From positions 1-64,000 of the forward strand of contig NZ_SCHL01000004.1 in assembly GCF_004099695.1 (NCBI RefSeq): a DNA stretch of 64,000 bases, read 5' to 3'. The first letter of the stretch is position 1; each line of letters starts with the position of its first letter. Source of the stretch: Methanosarcina sp. MSH10X1 (lineage in GTDB: Archaea; Halobacteriota; Methanosarcinia; Methanosarcinales; Methanosarcinaceae). The notes under the pieces were generated by a model. The model was not told the DNA's origin. It was given only the letters and a program-made list of their open reading frames with translations, and ran no database searches. A program made the translations under genes and the position numbers. Below, piece by piece: positions 36,646 through 49,757 of this stretch.

Positions 36646-37443
36646 TCAAATGTGCTCACTCAGAAACTGCAAACGCTCTTGACTGGCTGCATACTCCGGC
36701 TCTTTAAGCAGTGTACACCTATCGAGACTGACCTGTCCTGCCATTAGCCTTATGGCAAAGCTGTAGCATCCCTGCTCGCCGCACTGACGACAGTTGATTC
36801 GGGGCAGGTGTTTGTATATATCCATGAATTCGACCCTGATTTTTTCTCTGGGAGCTGGAACCACTCCTTTTCTAATAGCTTCATTAATAGTTTCTTTCAG
36901 GATTTCAAGCTCTTTTTTAGCTTCTGCCTCACTTCCAACCATTCTCATGACAACTTTTCCACTACCATAAATCGTTGTAATTATCTCTCCTTTTTGAATT
37001 ATCAGACTACTTTTTATATCCGAATAATTCCCCCGGGGAAAGATAGGCTTAAGGATTTTCAAGACTCTGCCCAATGGAGGGGAAATGTTTGCAACGATTC
37101 TGAATTTCGTGGAATCTGCTATACAGGGTAAAAGCTGTCTAACCTCGGCAATCTCTACAGGCTTTGCCTGAGAAAGATCTTTAGTTTCTTCAGTTCCTTT
37201 TTCTTTTCCACCTTTCAAGAAGTTCTTTCCGTGTTCACTTATTTTGACAATCTTATCTTCTAGCTCAATCAGACCTGCCTCGTGCAAAATCTTTAGATGG
37301 AAATCAACAGTTTTTTCCCCGACTATCCCTTCGATTTCCTCAATATCCCTATCACTGTCTGCAAGGCAGTTAATTATTTTCCTTCTGGCCTTATTTGCCA
37401 TAGCAAAATTTACCAGCTTTGTTTCACTCATACCTCCTGACAT
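36646..37443 (-). CDS. HTH regulator with C-terminal Fe-S (ACS-gamma-like) domain, copy 1
   Basis: Protein of 265 residues. Residues 1-70 form an ArsR-like winged helix (ANKARRKIINCLADSDRDIEEI, VDFHLKILHEAGLIELED). Residues 95-210 form a conserved middle domain (RQLLPCIADSTKFRIVANIS, then KGEIITTIYGSGKVVMRMV). The end has INCRQCGEQGCYSFAIRLMA and a later Cys in SLDRC, matching the four-Cys Fe-S domain of the CODH/ACS gamma subunit and RnfB. A redox or sulfur-sensing repressor is a reasonable inference. It is 88 bases downstream of a close paralogue and just before the DsrE-like gene. ATG 37443 has GGAAGG upstream. Confidence 0.85.
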   Translation of the reverse strand: MSGGMSETKLVNFAMANKARRKIINCLADSDRDIEEIEGIVGEKTVDFHLKILHEAGLIELEDKIVKISEHGKNFLKGGKEKGTEETKDLSQAKPVEIAEVRQLLPCIADSTKFRIVANISPPLGRVLKILKPIFPRGNYSDIKSSLIIQKGEIITTIYGSGKVVMRMVGSEAEAKKELEILKETINEAIRKGVVPAPREKIRVEFMDIYKHLPRINCRQCGEQGCYSFAIRLMAGQVSLDRCTLLKEPEYAASQERLQFLSEHI

Positions 37444-37530
37444 CTTTTATACCTTCCAGCGCTGTTGAAGTCAAACTCTGTCTGTCTCTAAAAAATATAC
37501 AGGCGCAGGTTATGTTTTAGAGTAACCTGC

Positions 37531-38328
37531 TCAAATGTATGCACTCAGAACCTGCAGATGTTCCTGGTTTGTTGCATATTTTGGCTCATTAAGAGGCGTG
37601 CACTTATCAAGGGAAGTTTCGCCACTCATGAGCTTTATAGCAAAAGTATAGCAGCTCTGCTCGCCGCATTTGCCGCAGTTGGTTTGGGGCAAGTATTTAT
37701 AAAGCTCCATGGGTTCGACTCTGACCTTTTCCCTGGGAGCCGGAGCGACGCCTTTTGCAATAGCCTCGTTGATAGTACTTCTGAGATTACCAAGCGCTTC
37801 TCTAGCTTCGCCCTCGTTTTTAATCATCGTCATGGTAACCTTTCCGGTACCGTAGATCGTTGTAATAATTTCTCCTTTTTGCATTATCAGGGCGTTTATC
37901 CTGTCAGAATATCTGCCTCTGGGGAAAAGGGGCTCAAGAACTTTGAGAGTTCCGCCAAGCGGGGGAGCCAGATTTGCTATCACCCTGAACTTAGAGGAGT
38001 CTGCTATACAGGGCAAAAGCTGTCGAACTTCTACAATATCCACGGGTTTTGCCTGAGAGAGATCTGCGCTTTTACCTGAATCTTTCTCTTCCTTATCCTT
38101 CAGGAAATTTCTGCCGTATTCACTTAATCTGACAGTTCCTTCTCCTAGCTCGATCAGGCTTGCCTGTTGCAGAAGCTTTAGATGGAAATCGAGCATGGAC
38201 TTCCCTACAGAATCTCCAATTTCCTCAGTACTTCTATCGCCATCTGTTAGGAAGTTCATAATCTTCCGTCGGGTGGCATTGGACATAGCGTTGTTTACCA
38301 GCTTTATCTCATTCGGATTTCCGGGCAT
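37531..38328 (-). CDS. HTH regulator with C-terminal Fe-S (ACS-gamma-like) domain, copy 2
   Basis: Paralogue of the next gene with the same length (265) and domain order: winged helix (SNATRRKIMNFLTDGDRSTEEI), middle domain (LLPCIADSSKFRVIANLAPP) and C-terminal TNCGKCGEQSCYTFAIKLMS with SLDKC. About two thirds of residues are shared. It is the first gene of the minus-strand series leading into the DsrE/F/H set. ATG 38328 has GGTGGGAA upstream. The two copies may form a heterodimer or sense different signals. Confidence 0.85.
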   Translation of the reverse strand: MPGNPNEIKLVNNAMSNATRRKIMNFLTDGDRSTEEIGDSVGKSMLDFHLKLLQQASLIELGEGTVRLSEYGRNFLKDKEEKDSGKSADLSQAKPVDIVEVRQLLPCIADSSKFRVIANLAPPLGGTLKVLEPLFPRGRYSDRINALIMQKGEIITTIYGTGKVTMTMIKNEGEAREALGNLRSTINEAIAKGVAPAPREKVRVEPMELYKYLPQTNCGKCGEQSCYTFAIKLMSGETSLDKCTPLNEPKYATNQEHLQVLSAYI

Positions 38329-38481: not shown

Positions 38482-38501
38482 ATATCAAAAAAGATTGATA
38501 C
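38482..38501. promoter_or_regulatory. Shared palindrome ATATCAA-N6-TTGATAC, site 1
   Basis: ATATCAA, six bases, TTGATAC; one mismatch to the consensus found at four other places in this window. It lies 210 bases before the small ORF at 38694 and 150 bases before the regulator start at 38328. Confidence 0.6.
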
Positions 38502-38590
38502 GAGATTCGAAATCTGATGTAGTCATTTACAGTTATTCCTTATCAGTATGTATTAAATTACCAGATATATCGGATACGCAAAACTGGCAT

Positions 38591-38610
38591 ATATCAATAA
38601 TTCTTGATAC
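38591..38610. promoter_or_regulatory. Shared palindrome ATATCAA-N6-TTGATAC, site 2
   Basis: Second copy 109 bases from the first, about 85 bases before the small ORF at 38694, which is a suitable place for repressor control of the transcript leading to the AhpD-like gene. Confidence 0.65.
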
Positions 38611-38693
38611 TCGTCAAGCAGGTTTTTAAAATTTGAGTCTGCAATATTGACTACACTATTTTTGAAATTCCAATGAATTAAGGAGGCTGGAAA

Positions 38694-38843
38694 ATGGAAA
38701 AAGAAAAAGATGCATTACCGGAGGAAAAGAATGCAAAGAATCAGGAAGATGATGAAGAAGATTTACTGTATACCCATAAGCCGGAAAATCGGGGCAGCAG
38801 TATGCAATGGAATTCTGCTTTTTGCAGAAAACCTGGTCAATGA
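38694..38843 (+). CDS. Small acidic ORF (49 residues), possibly truncated
   Basis: Starts at ATG 38694 with a very good AGGAGG seven bases upstream. It is strongly charged (EEKNAKNQEDDEED) and ends after KPGQ. The overlapping frame +1 (38710-38901) stays open further and ends in a more protein-like stretch (LLFAENLVNEIDVGSISNYG), so a frameshift may have split a gene of about 65 residues. It precedes the AhpD-like gene by 171 bases. I cannot assign a family. Confidence 0.45.
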   Translation: MEKEKDALPEEKNAKNQEDDEEDLLYTHKPENRGSSMQWNSAFCRKPGQ

Positions 38844-39014
38844 GATCGATGTGGGAAGTATCAGTAACTATGGTTTAACTTTAAAGATAAATTGCCTGTA
38901 AATTCGACCGCCTGCAACTTTAAATTCGAAGTAATATATCAGGATTCTACCATAAGTTAAAATTTTAAATTATATTATTTTGTATATTTACTTTTTAAAG
39001 AGGAGGATGTTTAA

Positions 39015-39356
39015 ATGTCATTTTTGAATGAAATCTTACCTGAAACCGCGGAAGCTTTCGGACAGATGAGAAATTCTATTTTCAAAGATGGTTTTCTGGA
39101 TCTTAAAACCAAAGAGCTTATAGCTGTTGCTTCTTCGGTCCTTATGCGCTGCCAGTTCTGCGTTGACGCTCATTCGCAAAGAGCGATTACTGCAGGAGCC
39201 ACAAAGGAGGAGATCGCAGAGGCAATTTCAGTTGCAATGTTTGTTGCTGCTGGTTCGCAGATTGGATGGACGAACATATACGGGGAAAATATATACGATA
39301 AAATCTTTGAACAGGATAAGGAAGAAGATAACTGCTGCTGTTGCTGCAAGGATTAA
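39015..39356 (+). CDS. AhpD-like carboxymuconolactone decarboxylase family protein
   Basis: Protein of 113 residues, mostly helical, with the AhpD-type redox motif RCQFCVDAHSQRAITAGAT (C-x-x-C plus His). AhpD relatives reduce disulfides or peroxiredoxins. The C-terminal end is unusual: NCCCCCKD, five adjacent Cys that could bind metal or carry disulfides. ATG 39015 has GGAGG upstream. It lies downstream of two copies of the shared palindrome and next to ArsR and the thioredoxin/CcdA genes, so a role in redox or metal(loid) defence fits. Confidence 0.92.
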   Translation: MSFLNEILPETAEAFGQMRNSIFKDGFLDLKTKELIAVASSVLMRCQFCVDAHSQRAITAGATKEEIAEAISVAMFVAAGSQIGWTNIYGENIYDKIFEQDKEEDNCCCCCKD

Positions 39357-39392
39357 AAATCCTGGTTATCTTTGATTTAAACATTTTTCTAT

Positions 39393-39767
39393 TTAACTTA
39401 ATTCAGCATATTCGGACTTTTTGTTCTGTACCTGCGATATAGTGTTCAGGATATTTCCAAATTCGGGGTTTAACCTGTAGAAATGCCATTTTGAACTGCT
39501 GTAAGCTTCAACGATCCCGCAGTTTTTCAAGACTGTCAAATGGTGGGAAACAAGGTTCTGCTTCTCATTTAGTTTAAATATTAGTTCACATACGCAGTGG
39601 TCTCGCTGGGATAAAAAATAAGCAATTTTGAGTCTTATAGGATGCCCGAGTGCGCTAAATATCTCACTGGCTTTTTTAATGTCATTGTCCAGAAAATCGA
39701 TTTCCTGGAGCATTTTCTCTTCCCATTCCTTCTTCTTCTCAGGGTCGGCAGGACAGCAATAACTCAT
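39393..39767 (-). CDS. ArsR family regulator with Cys metal box
   Basis: Winged-helix protein of 124 residues: SEIFSALGHPIRLKIAYFLSQRDHCVCELIFKLN carries the CVCE metal/metalloid box in the alpha-3 position, and LVSHHLTVLKNCGIVEAY is the recognition helix. An N-terminal YCCPADPEKKK adds two more Cys. It is divergent from the thioredoxin/CcdA genes; the intergenic space holds two copies of the palindrome ATATCAA-N6-TTGATAT, the nearest one 38 bases before this start. It is the best candidate for the protein that binds that palindrome at all five sites. Confidence 0.92.
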   Translation of the reverse strand: MSYCCPADPEKKKEWEEKMLQEIDFLDNDIKKASEIFSALGHPIRLKIAYFLSQRDHCVCELIFKLNEKQNLVSHHLTVLKNCGIVEAYSSSKWHFYRLNPEFGNILNTISQVQNKKSEYAELS

Positions 39768-39804
39768 GAATAAAATAAGTCAAGCTTTCTAATTAAGATT
39801 TTTC

Positions 39805-39824
39805 ATATCAATTTTGTTTGATAT
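39805..39824. promoter_or_regulatory. Shared palindrome ATATCAA-N6-TTGATAT, site 3
   Basis: Perfect 7-7 palindrome, 38 bases before the ArsR start; probable autoregulatory operator. Confidence 0.7.
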
Positions 39825-40020
39825 TTAACATGCAATTATTTATACTCAATCACTTTCTGGATTTTGAAACCTTAAATTACAATATATTCTCAGTTGACGG
39901 ATCAATTAAAGGAAGATTTACTCTCATCAATAGGGCTCATTACTGCAAGTAATTTCCTATATTTTTTGCGAACCACCGATAATTAAAGCAAAAAACTTAT
40001 AAGATTTGTTATACTTTAGT

Positions 40021-40040
40021 ATATCAACATATCTTGATAT
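40021..40040. promoter_or_regulatory. Shared palindrome ATATCAA-N6-TTGATAT, site 4
   Basis: Perfect 7-7 palindrome 60 bases before the thioredoxin-like gene. An AACTTATAAG TATA-like element lies about 25 bases before it (39995-40004), so the palindrome covers the expected transcription start. Confidence 0.72.
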
Positions 40041-40100
40041 CCTACAATCTTTTCCTGTTTCTTAGCTGGAAAACGAAAAGAAGATTTTTGGAGGATTATA

Positions 40101-40679
40101 ATGAAGCGATTGCATAGAATACAAGATAAAGAACGAACTCCTTTTTCACCATTTCCTTTGATAAAATTACTCTCGATTTCAGCGATTTTTTGCTTCCTGA
40201 TATTCAGCTCCGGTTGCACAGATGCGGAAACCTCCGATAATGAAGCAGGCCTTGATGGAGTTGAGAACGTTAATAATTCAGGCAGCGGAATGGAATTAGT
40301 TGAAGTTACCAACCTTAGCCAGATTAATGAATCTCTCAAAAAGGGTCCTGTTGTACTTAAACTTGGTTCAAAGGGCTGTATTCCCTGTGCAGAGCAGGAA
40401 GAAGTCTTCTTAGAACTACTCCCACTTTATCAGGATTCTGCTTCATTCATGCTTATTGATATCAAACAGTACCCGGAGTTCGCTGAAGAGTTTGGAGTAA
40501 GGGTCATTCCGGATACCTGTATTATTACAGACATCGAAAACGAAAAATACATGTATATGCGACCGGATGGCAGCAAAAACCAGGAAAGAGAAGCCGCAAG
40601 ATTCCTGGGTGTTACCGACAAAGAAACTCTTTCAGAGACTCTTGAGAAAGCTATCGAATCCAGGAAAATTGAGGGTTAA
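40101..40679 (+). CDS. Thioredoxin-like lipoprotein
   Basis: Exported protein of 192 residues anchored by lipid (signal ends FSSGC). The mature part has a thioredoxin fold with active site GCIPCAEQEEVF and the cis-Pro loop RVIPDTCII. It follows GGAGG at ATG 40101 and is followed after 3 bases by a CcdA gene, the usual partner that carries electrons across the membrane to such proteins. The pair probably keeps surface thiols reduced or detoxifies oxidants or metalloids. Confidence 0.9.
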   Translation: MKRLHRIQDKERTPFSPFPLIKLLSISAIFCFLIFSSGCTDAETSDNEAGLDGVENVNNSGSGMELVEVTNLSQINESLKKGPVVLKLGSKGCIPCAEQEEVFLELLPLYQDSASFMLIDIKQYPEFAEEFGVRVIPDTCIITDIENEKYMYMRPDGSKNQEREAARFLGVTDKETLSETLEKAIESRKIEG

Positions 40680-40682
40680 ATA

Positions 40683-41327
40683 ATGCTTTTTGATTTTCTT
40701 CCAGTTGCAGCTTTTTTCGCAGGGGTTGTCAGTGTACTCTCCCCATGTATTCTGCCTGTAATTCCTGTAGTTTTTGCCTACTCTACTGGAAGAGGGAAGT
40801 TCAGACCACTTGCTATCGTATCAGGTTTGTCACTTTCCTTCACCTGCATGGGAATCATTACTTCAATTTTTGGAGCAACACTTACAGCCTATCTCGGTTA
40901 TCTTAATATTTTTGCAGAATTTGTCCTGATCGCGATGGGCATTTCGTTACTCTTTGACTTAAACACTTTCAGCATCTTTGGAAACTTTTCATCTCTTGTA
41001 AACTCCAGGCGGGAGGGTCTTTTTGGAGGGTTTTTACTCGGGCTTTCTCTAGGGATTGTCTGGCTTCCATGTGTCGGCCCGGTGCTGGGTTCCATCCTAA
41101 CAATGGTTGCTGTTTCAGGAGAGATTGTTTATGGAGCACTGATGCTTTTTATTTATTCTCTGGGATTTTCCGTTCCAATGCTTCTTGTTGCTTATTCTGC
41201 AAGCTTTTCTTCCATAAGGCTTCAGAAGGTCTCAAAATATGGTTTCCCGTTAAAAAAAGTTGCAGGCTTTGTAATCCTAGGAATTGGCCTTTACATGGTT
41301 TATCAGAACCATTTCAGCGGTTTCTGA
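40683..41327 (+). CDS. ccdA: CcdA/DsbD-type membrane electron transfer protein
   Basis: Integral membrane protein of 214 residues with six segments. The two conserved Cys are in GVVSVLSPCILPVIPVVFAY and in GIVWLPCVGPVLGSIL, both with the family prolines. CcdA shuttles reducing equivalents from cytoplasmic thioredoxin to extracytoplasmic thiol proteins. It sits 3 bases after the thioredoxin-like lipoprotein, with GAGGGTTAA serving as ribosome site, and is controlled by the same upstream palindrome. Confidence 0.94.
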   Translation: MLFDFLPVAAFFAGVVSVLSPCILPVIPVVFAYSTGRGKFRPLAIVSGLSLSFTCMGIITSIFGATLTAYLGYLNIFAEFVLIAMGISLLFDLNTFSIFGNFSSLVNSRREGLFGGFLLGLSLGIVWLPCVGPVLGSILTMVAVSGEIVYGALMLFIYSLGFSVPMLLVAYSASFSSIRLQKVSKYGFPLKKVAGFVILGIGLYMVYQNHFSGF

Positions 41328-41364
41328 AATTAAAATCTATTTAGTTAACCCCTAGGAAACTGGT

Positions 41365-41397
41365 CAGGCATCTGAAAAAAAACTCTGGCAATGCCTG
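41365..41397 (+). terminator. Hairpin after ccdA
   Basis: CAGGCAT (41365-41371) and ATGCCTG (41391-41397) form a perfect stem. Confidence 0.45.
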
Positions 41398-41673
41398 AGG
41401 AAATTAAATCCAGAGGCGAAATCATAAGGTAATCTTAAATAAATAGAATTTACCGCAGGTGAACTGAGAAAACAATCACATTCAACCTCCGATATAAAAC
41501 ACTAAACCGTTCTAAACAACTGATTTTTGTACCTCACATTCTTGAGTTCAGTGTTCATATATATTTGAGAGCTTACATATATAAATATTTAAATATATAA
41601 ATGAATTTTTGAGTAAGATTATGAAAAGAATGATTTAAACTTACATTAAACAGATAAGCCAATAGTGATATAC

Positions 41674-42222
41674 ATGAACTATAGTAAAATGACAAAGGAC
41701 GATTTTGACAGAATTCTTTACATATGTCTTAAAGAGGAAACTCTTCAATCAATAGTTAAAATTCCAGGCGTCTCTGAAATAGTATCCAAACATTTCAATA
41801 ATGATACATTTCTTAAAGAGGAAATTCCTCAATCAATAGTTAAGATTCCAGGAATCTATGAAATAGTATCCGAACATTTCAATAATGATATACTTGAAAA
41901 GTGGGAGTATGAGCAATATATAAAGGTTAAAGAGATTGTAGAAAGAATTAGCTTGTGGAATCCAGAGTTCCAGCGAACCCTGGTGCTACTAAAATTAATA
42001 AACGAATTAACTGAAGTTCTTTGCGGTACTCTGGATCTAAAATTGGACCAATATATTAACCTTCGTGCACTTCCAGTTAGAGAGTTTTTTAGAGAGGTAG
42101 TGGATAAATATTCAGCTTACCCTATCTGGACATGTGATTTTGAGGGATCCTGTCTCGTTGGTGCGGAGAAGCTTGAAATAGAGCCTATTGATTCAATTCT
42201 CCACCGCTTTGGAGATGAGTAA
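41674..42222 (+). CDS. Hypothetical protein with internal 28-residue duplication
   Basis: Protein of 182 residues without a family I know. Near its start a 28-residue unit, beginning LKEET and ending in FNNDTF, is repeated (second copy LKEEI to FNNDIL). The DNA copies are 84 bases each and nearly identical (41728-41811, 41812-41895). The rest is helical with VLLKLINELTEVLCGTLDL and WTCDFEGSCLVGAEKLEI. No signal peptide. ATG 41674. It stands alone in AT-rich DNA and may be lineage-specific. Confidence 0.65.
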   Translation: MNYSKMTKDDFDRILYICLKEETLQSIVKIPGVSEIVSKHFNNDTFLKEEIPQSIVKIPGIYEIVSEHFNNDILEKWEYEQYIKVKEIVERISLWNPEFQRTLVLLKLINELTEVLCGTLDLKLDQYINLRALPVREFFREVVDKYSAYPIWTCDFEGSCLVGAEKLEIEPIDSILHRFGDE

Positions 42223-42313
42223 ACAATTTGAGAAAAACTTTGGTAGTTACCAGAACTATATAAATGCTATGCAGTGTATCTATATAAATAGTGGGCTGCA
42301 TATATACTTAATT

Positions 42314-42781
42314 CTACTTTTCCTGCTTAACAACAAGAACAGAGACCTTTGAGTGCCTTACTACCTTATCTGTCACACTTCCGAGTAAAAATCTTTCCAA
42401 TCCTCCTTTACCGAGAGTTCCCATTACTATAATATCTACTTTATTCTGCTCCGCAAACTCCAGGATCTCATTAGCAGGATCACCTTCTACAACTGCACCT
42501 TCATAATCTACCTGCTTATCCTCTGCAACCTTTTTCGCGTACTGGATGGCATCATTTCCTTCCTGACGCAGCGTTGCCTCCGTAATGTTCCAGTCAGAAC
42601 CCAGAGGAACCGGAGTTTCCAGCACAGGCGGTGCATATTCATCTTTATTAAACACGTAAAGAGCATAGACCTTTGCACCCATAAGTTTTGCAAGTTCCAT
42701 TCCATGCAGTACGGCATTTTGACTATATTTAGATCCATCTGTTGCAATCAGGATTTTTTGGAAAACATTCTTAAGAGTTAT
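42314..42781 (-). CDS. Universal stress protein UspA family, with ATA in start position
   Basis: Usp fold protein: ILIATDGSKYSQNAV with the ATP-loop Asp, VEGDPANEILEFAEQNKVDIIVMG, and the ATP motif GTLGKGGLERFLLGS (G-x2-G-x9-GS). Full-length sequence (155 codons) runs back to a TAA at 42782-42784. The codon right after that stop is ATA, six bases from a GGGGGG ribosome site, exactly where the start belongs. No ATG, GTG or TTG exists until 42700, which would delete the first strand and ATP loop. Either ATA is used as start or the start codon has been lost. Confidence 0.85.
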   Translation of the reverse strand: MTLKNVFQKILIATDGSKYSQNAVLHGMELAKLMGAKVYALYVFNKDEYAPPVLETPVPLGSDWNITEATLRQEGNDAIQYAKKVAEDKQVDYEGAVVEGDPANEILEFAEQNKVDIIVMGTLGKGGLERFLLGSVTDKVVRHSKVSVLVVKQEK

Positions 42782-43004
42782 TTACTTCCCCCCAGTTACA
42801 TAGCAGTATTGAATCGTGTTGATGTCTAAGTTAAATGTAAACAAAAAGTATTACAGAATTATTTAAGATAAAAGCAAATAAAGATTATGTGTACTATTCG
42901 CACTGGAAATTTTTTATGAATTTAAGAAGCATCCACTATTATAACAGAACACAGTAGATCAAATCTGCTACCTGCGAAATATCTCTAAAGCAGTAAAGAT
43001 AGTT

Positions 43005-43325
43005 TCAAACATCCCTGAATTCGATACTGATGCTGCCTGCCTTTTTTACTAGAGATTTTGCCAGGAAACCGCTCTCCATTCTGCAGAGGTTCAGTACTGC
43101 ACAGGGAACAAGGCAATTTGAAGAGCAATTTGCTTCCTGTGCCCTGTCAATGACGTAGTTATTTTTAATATCCAGAATTTCCATCATGGGAACTTCCATA
43201 TGAGAGAATTTCTTTATCTTTTCACACGGAGTTTCGATGTCAATAATAATTTTATTTCCCTTTTTGCTTCCATGGATTGTATGAACAAACCCACAGATAG
43301 TGGAATTTACGATAACCTCGGTCAA
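43005..43325 (-). CDS. DUF6951-like Cys-containing protein
   Basis: Protein of 106 residues resembling the small family annotated DUF6951: TEVIVNSTICGFVHTIHGS, DIETPCEKIKKFSHME and CSSNCLVPCAVLNLCRMESG, with seven Cys suggesting an Fe-S or metal site. TTG 43325 preceded by AAAGGTGG is the better start than the ATG at 43349. It is the last gene of the permease operon and follows the DGC-domain gene by 90 bases. Role unknown. Confidence 0.72.
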   Translation of the reverse strand: MTEVIVNSTICGFVHTIHGSKKGNKIIIDIETPCEKIKKFSHMEVPMMEILDIKNNYVIDRAQEANCSSNCLVPCAVLNLCRMESGFLAKSLVKKAGSISIEFRDV

Positions 43326-43415
43326 TATGCCACCTTTGATTTTGGTCATTTAAGTTTTTTGATTCTTTAGAAAAATAGCTGTAAATGACGATATAGAAGT
43401 TAATCGAGTCCGGGA

Positions 43416-43799
43416 TCACTCGGACTGCAGTGTCTCAAGGGTTTTTTCTAGAGCTTCTGAGATTTCATTGTCCTTGAGATCTTTATCTTTATTCTTTTTG
43501 ATACCCAATTCAGAAATTATAATGTGCCGATATACTTTGAAACCTGCAAGCTCGAGAGTTTTGCTGGCACAGTTAACAGGGCAACCGTCAACCGCAATTA
43601 TTCTGTCTGAAGCCTCGGCAGATTTCATGAGTCCGGGGGCTCTAGCTCCGATTCCTACAGTGCACATCAAGTTTCCAACGTTTCGTTTTTCGAGTTCAAT
43701 TGCGATTTTATTTGAGATCTGACCCACATTTGAAGCCCCAGCACATGGAAAAATTGCCACATTTGCGGAACCACATGCACATTTTGTCTCTTCTGCCAT
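43416..43799 (-). CDS. DGC domain protein (putative zinc-binding)
   Basis: Protein of 127 residues with the four conserved Cys of the DGC family: CACGS at the N terminus, AIFPCAGASNVGQISN, GNLMCTVGIGARAP and AVDGCPVNCASKTLE. DGC proteins are putative zinc or metal(loid)-binding proteins often found with permeases and ArsR. It lies 67 bases after the small disulfide protein gene. GGAGG precedes ATG 43799. Confidence 0.88.
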   Translation of the reverse strand: MAEETKCACGSANVAIFPCAGASNVGQISNKIAIELEKRNVGNLMCTVGIGARAPGLMKSAEASDRIIAVDGCPVNCASKTLELAGFKVYRHIIISELGIKKNKDKDLKDNEISEALEKTLETLQSE

Positions 43800-43866
43800 T
43801 GTTTATCCTCCCTTCTGAATTATCATCTGGTTTTTAATCTTTTTTACTATAGGCACATGTCTTCTT

Positions 43867-44100
43867 TCATTGGGCAATCCACTTTCGAACGTCCTTTTCA
43901 TCCGGAACTTTGCCTGCAAGTTTTATGTCTCCATCAATAACAACTGCAGGGGTAACCATAACGCTGTAGCTCATAATTTTTTCAATATCCTCAACTTTAA
44001 TTACTTCAGCTTCAACGCCAGTTTGCTTCAGTAATTTTTCAATTTTTTCTTTTGTTTTCTTACACTTGGAGCATCCTGTTCCGAGAATTTCTATTTTCAT
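43867..44100 (-). CDS. Small redox-active disulfide (thioredoxin-like) protein
   Basis: Protein of 77 residues, thioredoxin fold: MKIEILGTGCSKCKKTKEKIEKLL (as the first 24 residues, in part), with C-x-x-C active site in GTGCSKCK, followed by VMVTPAVVIDGDIKLAG (cis-Pro) . It matches the family known as redox-active disulfide protein 2 (TIGR00412). It lies between the permease and DGC genes. AGGA precedes ATG 44100. It probably reduces a substrate of the permease/DGC pathway. Confidence 0.9.
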   Translation of the reverse strand: MKIEILGTGCSKCKKTKEKIEKLLKQTGVEAEVIKVEDIEKIMSYSVMVTPAVVIDGDIKLAGKVPDEKDVRKWIAQ

Positions 44101-44192
44101 ATATTTTCCTTCTTTTTCATTAGTTGATTCTTTTCCGACTTTGCCTTTATTTACAGCTTTATATTGTTAAATTTTAAAATACAGTAGGAGAC

Positions 44193-45164
44193 TTACAACA
44201 ACATATTGAATAGATATCCTGTAAAAATGATAGATAATGTTATAATTGAGACGAAAATTGCTACTAATTCTTTTTTAAGTACCTTTCTAAGGATAATCAT
44301 CTCAGGCAGAGATACGGCTGTGACAGACATGAGGAAAGCCAGGGCAGTTCCTACTGGAAGCCCTTTTCCAATCAGGCTTTCTACAATAGGAATCATTGCC
44401 ATAACGTTCGAGTAAAGGGGTACTCCAATAAGGACAGCAATTGGCACTGCAAGCAGATTATCCTCACCAGCGTATTTTTCGAGTATGCCTTCAGGAGCGT
44501 ATCCATGGAAAATGCCTCCTATAGCAACTCCTATTATTACATAGAGCCATACCCTGCCCACAATATCTTTTACACTTTCAAAAGCGTATTCTGCTCTTTC
44601 CCTCATTGTTAGCTTTTGGTCTTCACTGCTTTGTTTTCCCACTTTCATCTTATATACAAAGTCTTCTACATACTTTTCAAGTTTCAGGACGCCGATCATA
44701 TAGCCCCCTACGACTCCCAGTAAAACTCCTGATACTACGTAAATTACTGTTGCCTGGAGTCCGAGAGTTGCCCATAGAGCAGCAACTGCGGCTTCGTTTA
44801 CAAGAGGAGAAGTGATCAGAAAGGCGAAAGTGACTCCCAGGGGCACTCCGGCTTCAACAAACCCTATAAAGATCGGAACAGACGAACACGAACAGAATGG
44901 AGTTATCGTTCCTATGAGAGATGCAAGAAAATAATATCTGAGTCCTTTCTTGCTTCCGAGAACCTGTCTTGTTCTCTCGGGAGTGATATATGTCCTCAGG
45001 TAGGAAACAACAAAGATCATTACAGCTAGAAGGACGAAAATTTTCATTACATCGTAAATGACAAAATTAACACTTGCTGCAAGGCGTGTATCAGGTGCAA
45101 TCCCGAGCAACTCATATGTCAGTTTATCAGCAATCCATTGAAGGGGATAGAAAATATCAACCAT
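44193..45164 (-). CDS. Permease, ArsP/DUF318 type (PF03773)
   Basis: Integral membrane protein of 323 residues with eight to nine segments. The motif TPFCSCSSVPIFIGF with its adjacent Cys is the hallmark of the family, repeated in form by GVPLYSNVMAMIP in the second half. ArsP members export methylated arsenicals; others of unknown substrate accompany thioredoxin-like proteins as here. AGGATC precedes ATG 45164. The promoter region holds a TATA box and the shared ArsR-type palindrome, and an ArsR gene lies upstream. Confidence 0.92.
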   Translation of the reverse strand: MVDIFYPLQWIADKLTYELLGIAPDTRLAASVNFVIYDVMKIFVLLAVMIFVVSYLRTYITPERTRQVLGSKKGLRYYFLASLIGTITPFCSCSSVPIFIGFVEAGVPLGVTFAFLITSPLVNEAAVAALWATLGLQATVIYVVSGVLLGVVGGYMIGVLKLEKYVEDFVYKMKVGKQSSEDQKLTMRERAEYAFESVKDIVGRVWLYVIIGVAIGGIFHGYAPEGILEKYAGEDNLLAVPIAVLIGVPLYSNVMAMIPIVESLIGKGLPVGTALAFLMSVTAVSLPEMIILRKVLKKELVAIFVSIITLSIIFTGYLFNMLL

Positions 45165-45221
45165 TTTGGATCCTTCTTTTACCTAGTTGTGATTTCTATT
45201 GAAACAGTTCAAGTTTCTAAT

Positions 45222-45241
45222 ATATCAATATACATTGATAT
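45222..45241. promoter_or_regulatory. Shared palindrome ATATCAA-N6-TTGATAT, site 5
   Basis: Perfect 7-7 palindrome (8-8 with a shorter spacer) 58 bases before the permease. On the minus strand a TTTATATA box lies about 10 bases before it (near 45250-45257), so bound repressor would block transcription start. Confidence 0.75.
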
Positions 45242-45497: not shown

Positions 45498-45809
45498 TTA
45501 TTCTTCAAGGATTTCCAGAATCTTCCTGATTTTCTCATTTTGTATAGAATACAGCCTCATTTTTCCTTCTTTTTTTACTTTAATTATCCCCCAGTCCTGC
45601 AATTTTGCAAGGTGCATCGAGGTATTGGATTGCGTCCTCCCAATTATTTCCGGGATTTCACAGGCACATAACTCTCCTTTGCTACCGTATTTATTTTCTC
45701 TGCACTTATTCTCAGATTCGATTAAAGCCTTAATAATTCTATACCTGGTGTCTTCACTCAGGGCTTTGAAAAGCTGTAGATTTGCTTCATTAATCATATC
45801 AATAATCAT
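45498..45809 (-). CDS. ArsR family regulator with CACE box
   Basis: Winged-helix protein of 103 residues: LQLFKALSEDTRYRIIKALIES, then KGELCACEIPEIIGRTQSNTSMHLAKLQDWGII, with the ELCACE metalloid box. A Cys in ENKCRENK may add a ligand. It lies 333 bases upstream of the permease on the same strand. ATG 45809 or 45797 may be the start; a TATA-like ATATATAT lies only 13-25 bases before, so the message may be leaderless. Confidence 0.92.
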   Translation of the reverse strand: MIIDMINEANLQLFKALSEDTRYRIIKALIESENKCRENKYGSKGELCACEIPEIIGRTQSNTSMHLAKLQDWGIIKVKKEGKMRLYSIQNEKIRKILEILEE

Positions 45810-46197
45810 TGAACCTGTAAAACTATATATATTTTTCGAAATTGGAAATCAGGCTTATTGCCTGCAAATAAGGAAGGTTATTTTCCTTTGCTTTTCCCGA
45901 ACCTGTCAGCTTTTCTTGTAAATCTGTGCTTAACTACTTAATTATATACACGTTTTATTTTAGATATATTTAAAATAAAAGTAGAAGTCACCAATTTAAG
46001 AATGAATCGAGTCTGTTAGAATTTATGAAAAAATAATGCCCAGCTATCATAGATAATATGTAGTGTTATTAATTGCATAACTCGAGTTAGAAACTTATAA
46101 ATATTTATGCGCATATGTGTGAAATCAGAAATTTTTATCACTTTTGTAGTTATGAGCAAGCTCAATTAGAAACTTAAAACTTGGGAGTCCGAAAAAC
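45810..46197. promoter_or_regulatory. Divergent intergenic region with palindrome and TATA box
   Basis: TAACTCGAGTTA (46078-46089) is a perfect 12-base palindrome just before the TATA-like ACTTATAAATA of the methyltransferase gene. A related sequence, CTCAATTAGAAACTTAAAA, recurs near 46163, matching CTCGAGTTAGAAACTTATAA. These could be a regulator site and its partner. Confidence 0.45.
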
Positions 46198-49532: not shown

Positions 49533-49757
49533 CTGCTCTCTGGCTCAGGCATAATCTATTTTTGTCGACTTTTATTTGAATCTCCCGGGCTTCTATCAGG
49601 GAATTTTTAAATTAAAAAACACTTAAAAGTTGTACCCAGGCAGTCAGAGTGATTTCAAATTATTTTGAACTAACACTTAAATAATAAAATTATCATAGTA
49701 TATAGATTGCTTTAATAGCATGAGCCTGAAAGCACATAGACAAAAGGAGCCACAGAG

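Follow-up and report, generated by a model that had tools for sequence, protein, structure and literature searches.

A conserved palindrome marks a putative ArsR operator and regulon in Methanosarcina sp. MSH10X1 and its relatives

Five palindromes and the genes behind them

The window analysed here, the first 64,000 nucleotides (nt) of contig NZ_SCHL01000004.1 of Methanosarcina sp. MSH10X1, contains five copies of one palindrome, ATATCAA-N6-TTGATAT, which we interpret as a putative conserved operator of an ArsR-family repressor and as the mark of its regulon. The copies stand before a gene for a protein that combines a winged helix, a repeat of TATA-binding protein (TBP) and an iron-sulfur (Fe-S) domain (gene 37531), an AhpD gene with a small open reading frame (ORF) in its leader, arsR1, a thioredoxin-ccdA pair and a permease operon (Table 1).

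As an earlier note on this DNA had described, the five sites share both half-sites and the exact 6-base spacing, those at 39805, 40021 and 45222 are perfect, those at 38482 and 38591 carry one mismatch each (a terminal C for T), and all five are intergenic. That note had seen no other full copy, and a scan of the remaining window yielded no further site with fewer than three mismatches. Its assignment of sites to genes and promoters held in part. Both 38482 and 38591 had been placed before AhpD; the latter does precede it, by way of a 49-amino-acid (aa) ORF that had been overlooked, whereas the former serves the minus-strand gene 37531. A role of site 38482 as the AhpD operator was ruled out, because the site travels with gene 37531, including relatives' loci without a nearby AhpD gene. 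Two of the sites had also been placed at the expected transcription start behind TATA boxes; sites 39805, 40021 and 45222 do lie downstream of a TATA-like box, whereas 38482 and 38591 lie 12 nt upstream of one.

Table 1. Candidate operators, genes and related features at the locus (window coordinates)
Feature	Position	Strand	Characteristics
Paralog of the 37531 protein	36646-37443	-	62% identical; no operator of its own here, present in some relatives
Three-part protein (gene 37531)	37531-38328	-	ArsR-type winged helix (about 8-73), TBP repeat (about 95-192), four-Cys Fe-S domain PF04060 (213-245)
Candidate operator 1	38482-38501	-	GTATCAATCTTTTTTGATAT on the minus strand; 5' of TATA-like TTCTTATGAA (38469-38460), 12 nt past the site
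Candidate operator 2	38591-38610	+	ATATCAATAATTCTTGATAC; 5' of TATA-like TTTTTAAAAT (38623-38632, 12 nt gap)
Conserved 49-aa ORF	38694-38843	+	MEKEK...EEDLLYTHKPENRGSSMQWNSAFCRKPGQ; first gene past operator 2
AhpD/carboxymuconolactone-decarboxylase family protein	39015-39356	+	PF02627, E 1.7e-22; CQFC active site
ArsR1, candidate repressor	39393-39767	-	PF01022, E 4.8e-13, 49.2 bits (cutoff 22); NF033788, 76.5 (cutoff 55)
Candidate operator 3	39805-39824	-	37 bp before arsR1; 3' of TATAAATA (39844-39837, 12 nt gap)
Candidate operator 4	40021-40040	+	60 bp before the thioredoxin gene; 3' of TATA-like TTATAAGA (39997-40004, 16 nt gap)
Exported thioredoxin-like lipoprotein	40101-40679	+	PF00085; lipobox SSGC read from sequence; CIPC active site
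CcdA/DsbD transmembrane electron carrier	40683-41327	+	PF02683, E 1.1e-21
DUF6951 protein, last gene of the operon	43005-43349	-	PF22263, E 3.5e-22
DGC-domain protein	43416-43799	-	PF08859, E 4e-35
MTH895/ArsE-family thioredoxin-like protein	43867-44100	-	TIGR00412, 102.1 bits (cutoff 62)
ArsP_1-family permease	44193-45164	-	PF03773, E 8.7e-74
Candidate operator 5	45222-45241	-	57 bp before the permease gene; 3' of TTTATATA (45258-45251, 9 nt gap)
ArsR2, second candidate regulator	45498-45809	-	PF01022, E 1.4e-10; recognition helix SNTSMHL; 25% identical to ArsR1
Imperfect related palindrome, possible arsR2 operator	45796-45815	-	3 mismatches; over the arsR2 start codon

Conservation of the palindrome

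The palindromes are real, conserved control sites that occur far above chance. Matches with at most one mismatch number 5 in the window, whereas 150 dinucleotide shuffles of it gave 0.02 on average and never more than 1; with up to three mismatches allowed, there are 17, and the shuffles averaged 7.05 and reached at most 13. The 3.56-Mb genome has four perfect copies in total, three of which are in the window; the fourth (C15:12308) is inside a glycosyltransferase ORF and presumably arose by chance. A genome-wide regulon in this genome was ruled out, as matches with two mismatches are mostly background (46 forward versus 36 in the control). The only plausible members outside the main locus are on contig C54, namely an AhpD paralog (C54:70498, site at 70425) and relics at 79478 and 80036.

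The scan was extended to 186 genomes of the order, with the reversed pattern as control and counts summed over a per-genome table. Perfect copies number 113 versus 7 for the control in the order and 68 versus 2 in the genus, and their promoter positions are fixed. The arsR1 site lies at -36/-37 in 24 of the 30 genus copies with enough upstream DNA; the thioredoxin site was found in 13 of 14 relatives (at most three mismatches; mostly at -49 to -62) and the permease site in all 16 (at most two mismatches; -49 to -66). All orthologs of gene 37531 with at least 80% identity have a site 122-265 bp upstream. The AhpD site of relatives lies 212-421 bp (mostly 280-420 bp) 5' of the start, which leaves a long leader; an Rfam search of the window gave no match, so that the leaders are not accounted for by any known RNA element. 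Relatives retain a site at every one of these genes, and from species to species the surrounding gene order is reshuffled, which indicates that the sites follow the genes, not the block. The proposal that the motif links separate units is supported. With the spacer restricted to A/T, an over-strict pattern, no match was found outside the order. Named relatives of the arsR1 locus belong almost without exception to Methanosarcina.

ArsR1 as the candidate reader

ArsR1 is a single winged-helix protein of 124 aa with an N-terminal CCP (C4, C5), a C58-V-C60 motif and the recognition helix QNLVSHHL. C4, C5 and C58 are present in 49 of 49 homologs and C60 in 39 of them; these conserved cysteines could provide a thiolate site of the As(III) type, which we take to resemble that of a Corynebacterium ArsR. 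The ArsR1-like proteins at L183, L184, L186, L187 and L258 share the helix type and the operator but have CVE, CVA, CVT or CVK in place of CVC; with the second cysteine lost and helix and operator kept, the sensor site varies and DNA recognition stays.

The core of the palindrome is identical to ATCAA-N6-TTGAT, published as the consensus for ArsR binding; in Paracoccus, ArsR is released from such DNA by arsenite and likewise by diamide, a thiol oxidant (PMC9137774). Perfect palindromes also occur in other genera and another family of the order, 23-37 bp upstream of arsR1-like genes with 36-56% identity; ACR3 or USP-ACR3 usually flanks them on the far side. Homologs beside the palindrome keep a QNLVSHH-type helix (variants QNLISHH and QNLVSYH), the N-terminal CCP and C58, even those without C60. 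The operator is thereby linked to arsenical efflux, through the ArsP_1 permease in the window and through the arsR1-like/palindrome/ACR3 arrangement elsewhere. Because this arrangement recurs with the same helix, ArsR1 is the likely reader. A perfect site is present in 34 of the 40 genomes with a close arsR1, compared with 26 of the 146 without one (Fisher p 4e-15, kinship ignored), and several of these 26 carry a more distant arsR1-like gene beside the site. The three genomes of the genus without arsR1, arsR2 and gene 37531, one of them only 73% complete, have no perfect site.

We consider it quite probable that the palindrome is the operator of ArsR1, a putative repressor that would sense arsenic or thiol state, and the copy before arsR1 predicts autoregulation. 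The earlier note had called the motif an ArsR-type operator, for which the consensus core and the arsR1-like linkage across genera argue, and had named the CVCE-box ArsR at 39393 as its probable reader; the -37 site, the conserved helix and the co-occurrence with arsR1 make this protein the best candidate. The alternative that it offered, the ArsR at 45498 (ArsR2), is not the best reader overall and may serve the permease site, which is kept without arsR1.

Several points weigh against ArsR1 as the common reader. Shared descent inflates all of the cross-genome counts, and the TATA boxes are consensus guesses. The -37 site is missing in some arsR1 copies of the genus (one copy each at L086, L101 and L103). 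Gene 37531 occurs without the operator outside Methanosarcina and the nearest genus, and the permease site is perfect in genomes G010, G028 (a fragmented assembly) and G110, in which arsR2 is present and arsR1 is not.

Promoter geometry and possible modes of action

The sites take two positions relative to the promoter. At arsR1, trx and the permease gene, the site usually starts 7-17 nt past the end of a TATA-like box and therefore covers the expected transcription start. At the other promoters the box begins 11-14 nt after the site, namely in 15 of the 20 sequences scored for gene 37531, 14 of 20 for AhpD and 5 of 5 for the AhpD paralogs of relatives; the distance is 11-14 nt in most 37531 orthologs with at least 80% identity and 11-12 nt in most AhpD leaders of relatives. 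Because sites 38482 and 38591 precede the TATA box, they may act in the opposite sense. SurR, a redox regulator of archaea whose folds are related to those of ArsR, activates from sites upstream of TATA and represses from downstream ones (PMC12162507).

From these data we infer the following course for binding, induction and repression by ArsR1. Without inducer, an ArsR1 dimer would sit on the palindrome. At arsR1, trx-ccdA and permease-arsE-DGC-DUF6951, where the site is just downstream of TATA and over the expected start, this position implies that ArsR1 would repress. At gene 37531 and the microORF-AhpD unit, where the site is fixed 11-14 nt upstream of TATA, a bound archaeal regulator could help to recruit basal factors. 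ArsR1 would be released by As(III), or when the CCP/C58 thiols become oxidized, upon which the efflux and thiol-repair genes would be turned on and the two upstream-site promoters would shift the opposite way. Activation at the upstream sites, judged by itself from their position, comes close to an even call and tilts slightly to the negative. The full model, in which one arsenic/thiol-responsive ArsR is a position-dependent switch that represses the pump and disulfide-relay operons and drives the winged helix-TBP-Fe-S factor and the microprotein-AhpD unit, is tentative and, taken whole, rather unlikely.

ArsR proteins are usually pure repressors, and the co-induction of AhpD would make simple sense under oxidant or arsenic stress. 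A credible contender, if somewhat short of even, is that the upstream-of-TATA sites repress in the ordinary way, by hindering the loading of TFB/TBP, with the whole regulon derepressed together. However, with a gap of 11-14 nt, which unrelated promoters have in common, TATA and its flank stay free, and SurR acts otherwise (PMC12162507).

ArsR2 and the permease operon

In several relatives (L090, L103, L105 and L252), the permease gene string runs on into USP and ACR3; the permease operator may therefore also control arsenite efflux. In the present genome, C54 carries ACR3-USP next to a permease relic whose site is degraded. This second arsenic cluster (L018 5109-10027) consists of ACR3-USP, the permease relic, DGC, a thioredoxin-like protein and a permease; judged against relatives, it has apparently lost arsR2 and the first permease, or these have decayed.

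The persistence of the permease site in genomes with arsR2 and without arsR1 makes ArsR2 a possible reader, which may share this site. That the permease operon is governed mainly by ArsR2, acting through a near-identical operator in two overlapping regulons, is possible but on balance doubtful. The perfect sites in the three genomes named above fit it, and arsR2 is usually directly 5' of the permease gene. The inner CAAT is often common to the permease sites and the arsR2 start-codon palindrome, unlike the arsR1 sites, and at L110 the two are near-identical over 16 bp. Nevertheless, the recognition helix of ArsR2 differs from that of ArsR1, and its own palindrome departs from the motif by 1-3 mismatches and could not be located in several copies. 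This palindrome is conserved, but half of it is coding sequence, so that coding constraint confounds its conservation.

Gene 37531 and its site

In the product of gene 37531, Pfam identifies the Fe-S domain (E 1.7e-13) and, below the curated cutoff, TBP (E 0.0014); profile matches include 1y0u (1.7e-7), the M. jannaschii TBP 2z8u (8.5e-6) and the corrinoid Fe-S protein 2h9a (4.9e-9). The best Foldseek match of its AF2/AlphaFold model is TBP (E 1.5e-3, about 81 residues, 2.9 A); the model has a mean pLDDT of 78.8 and a pTM of 0.42, which makes the relative placement of the domains unreliable. The protein is likely a redox- or metal-responsive transcription factor, and we found no published description of an architecture that joins winged helix, TBP repeat and Fe-S domain. 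Two paralogs with these domains lie in tandem at 36646-38328. Genomes of family f4 match the C-terminal part only, in 186-aa frames without the winged helix, and homologs in other genera are often near arsR1-like, AhpD or ACR3 genes.

Because this protein has an ArsR-type winged helix and its gene has the site upstream in every close ortholog as well as in the neighbouring genus, it could itself read the two upstream-of-TATA sites (38482 and 38591) as an autoregulated redox activator in place of ArsR1. We regard this as improbable, since its helix (MLDFHLKLL) is unlike that of ArsR1 and homologs in other genera lack such a site. Moreover, G109 and G110, which yielded no close arsR1, keep gene 37531 with a palindrome of another type (ATTTCAA/GTTTCAA) at the position of the site, a switch that fits a change of reader. 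Finally, chance or a non-regulatory repeat, for which the AT-rich window and the one perfect genome copy in four that is inside a gene could be cited, can be dismissed, as chance is ruled out by the shuffles and reversed controls, and fixed positions and cross-genus conservation contradict it as well.

The microORF-AhpD unit and a second palindrome type

The 49-aa ORF between operator 2 and AhpD is below usual ORF length cutoffs, ends around W-N-x-x-x-C-R-x-P-G and gave no match in a Pfam search; most leaders of relatives have a similar ORF in the same place, with the block DLLYTHK(P/S/L)E...WN...C(R/K). AhpD has a Cys-rich tail, NCCCCCKD, that is kept in orthologs, and matches the ahpD_dom profile and, below cutoff, an arsenosugar-associated peroxidase-like family. 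The AhpD paralog on C54 (77%; C54:70425-70800, L114 4425-4800) has a two-mismatch operator 53 bp 5' and a TATA-like box 14 nt past it, and is likely an extra member of the regulon.

A second palindrome type, ATTTCAAA-N4-TTTGAAAT, is present at 49652-49671 before a second AhpD-like gene (49758) and is conserved in relatives. Upstream of a paralogous ArsP-type permease operon (C54:82049-82107, L018 10050-10108) it occurs in tandem copies that flank the TATA box, and it probably represents a sister regulon with another reader.

Comparison with known systems

A close likeness is to the ArsR1/ArsR2 operators of Paracoccus denitrificans (PMC9137774), which share the core half-sites, the spacing, the ArsR winged helix, a thiol sensor and the location before ars genes; the Campylobacter jejuni ArsR operator, as cited there, has the same core, ATCAA-N6-TTGAT. 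Compared with these bacterial operators, the Methanosarcina sites are at archaeal TATA promoters, have two extra palindromic bases per side, serve several scattered units from both sides of TATA and are known from sequence alone. The likeness to SurR of Thermococcales (PMC12162507) lies in redox control, ArsR-related winged helices, disulfide-handling genes among the targets and a site whose position relative to TATA, upstream or downstream, depends on the target group, a split that we find here as well. ArsR1 does not belong to the SurR family, which has the motif GTTn3AAC, two winged helices and a CxxC switch, and the dual action suggested for Methanosarcina is read from position.

The permease operon resembles the arsEFG/ArsP organoarsenical efflux systems, as cited in PMC9144182, in its ArsE/MTH895-family protein (above cutoff) and ArsP_1-family permease, and differs from them, as far as they are cited there, in being archaeal and in its DGC and DUF6951 partners. 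MsvR, as outlined in PMC3729527, is likewise a redox-responsive regulator of methanogens, and its family model matches the winged-helix region of ArsR1 weakly (18.9 versus a cutoff of 220 bits); the 37531 protein has TBP and Fe-S domains instead. The M. mazei sRNA162/MM2441 ArsR system (PMC3510493) was considered as a link and set aside, with nothing found for or against it. In the open-access literature, which leaves most subscription journals outside, we found no paper on such a Methanosarcina ArsR regulon.

Conclusions

In this study, we describe a conserved palindrome that is best read as a putative ArsR operator with its regulon. Few regulons of methanogens have been mapped, and here a candidate operator, reader and target list can be named across the Methanosarcinales in testable form. 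The predicted regulon links metalloid efflux through arsenic pumps, disulfide/thiol repair and an unusual Fe-S regulator, and it goes beyond an ordinary ars operon in its two-sided promoter placement and its winged helix-TBP-Fe-S target. The placement on both sides of TATA would also put to the test how widely the position rule of SurR holds in archaea, and the position-dependent switch, if true, would couple metalloid stress to a TBP-like redox regulator. Such a regulator fused to TBP and Fe-S domains could reveal how redox or metalloid stress is perceived in strict anaerobes.

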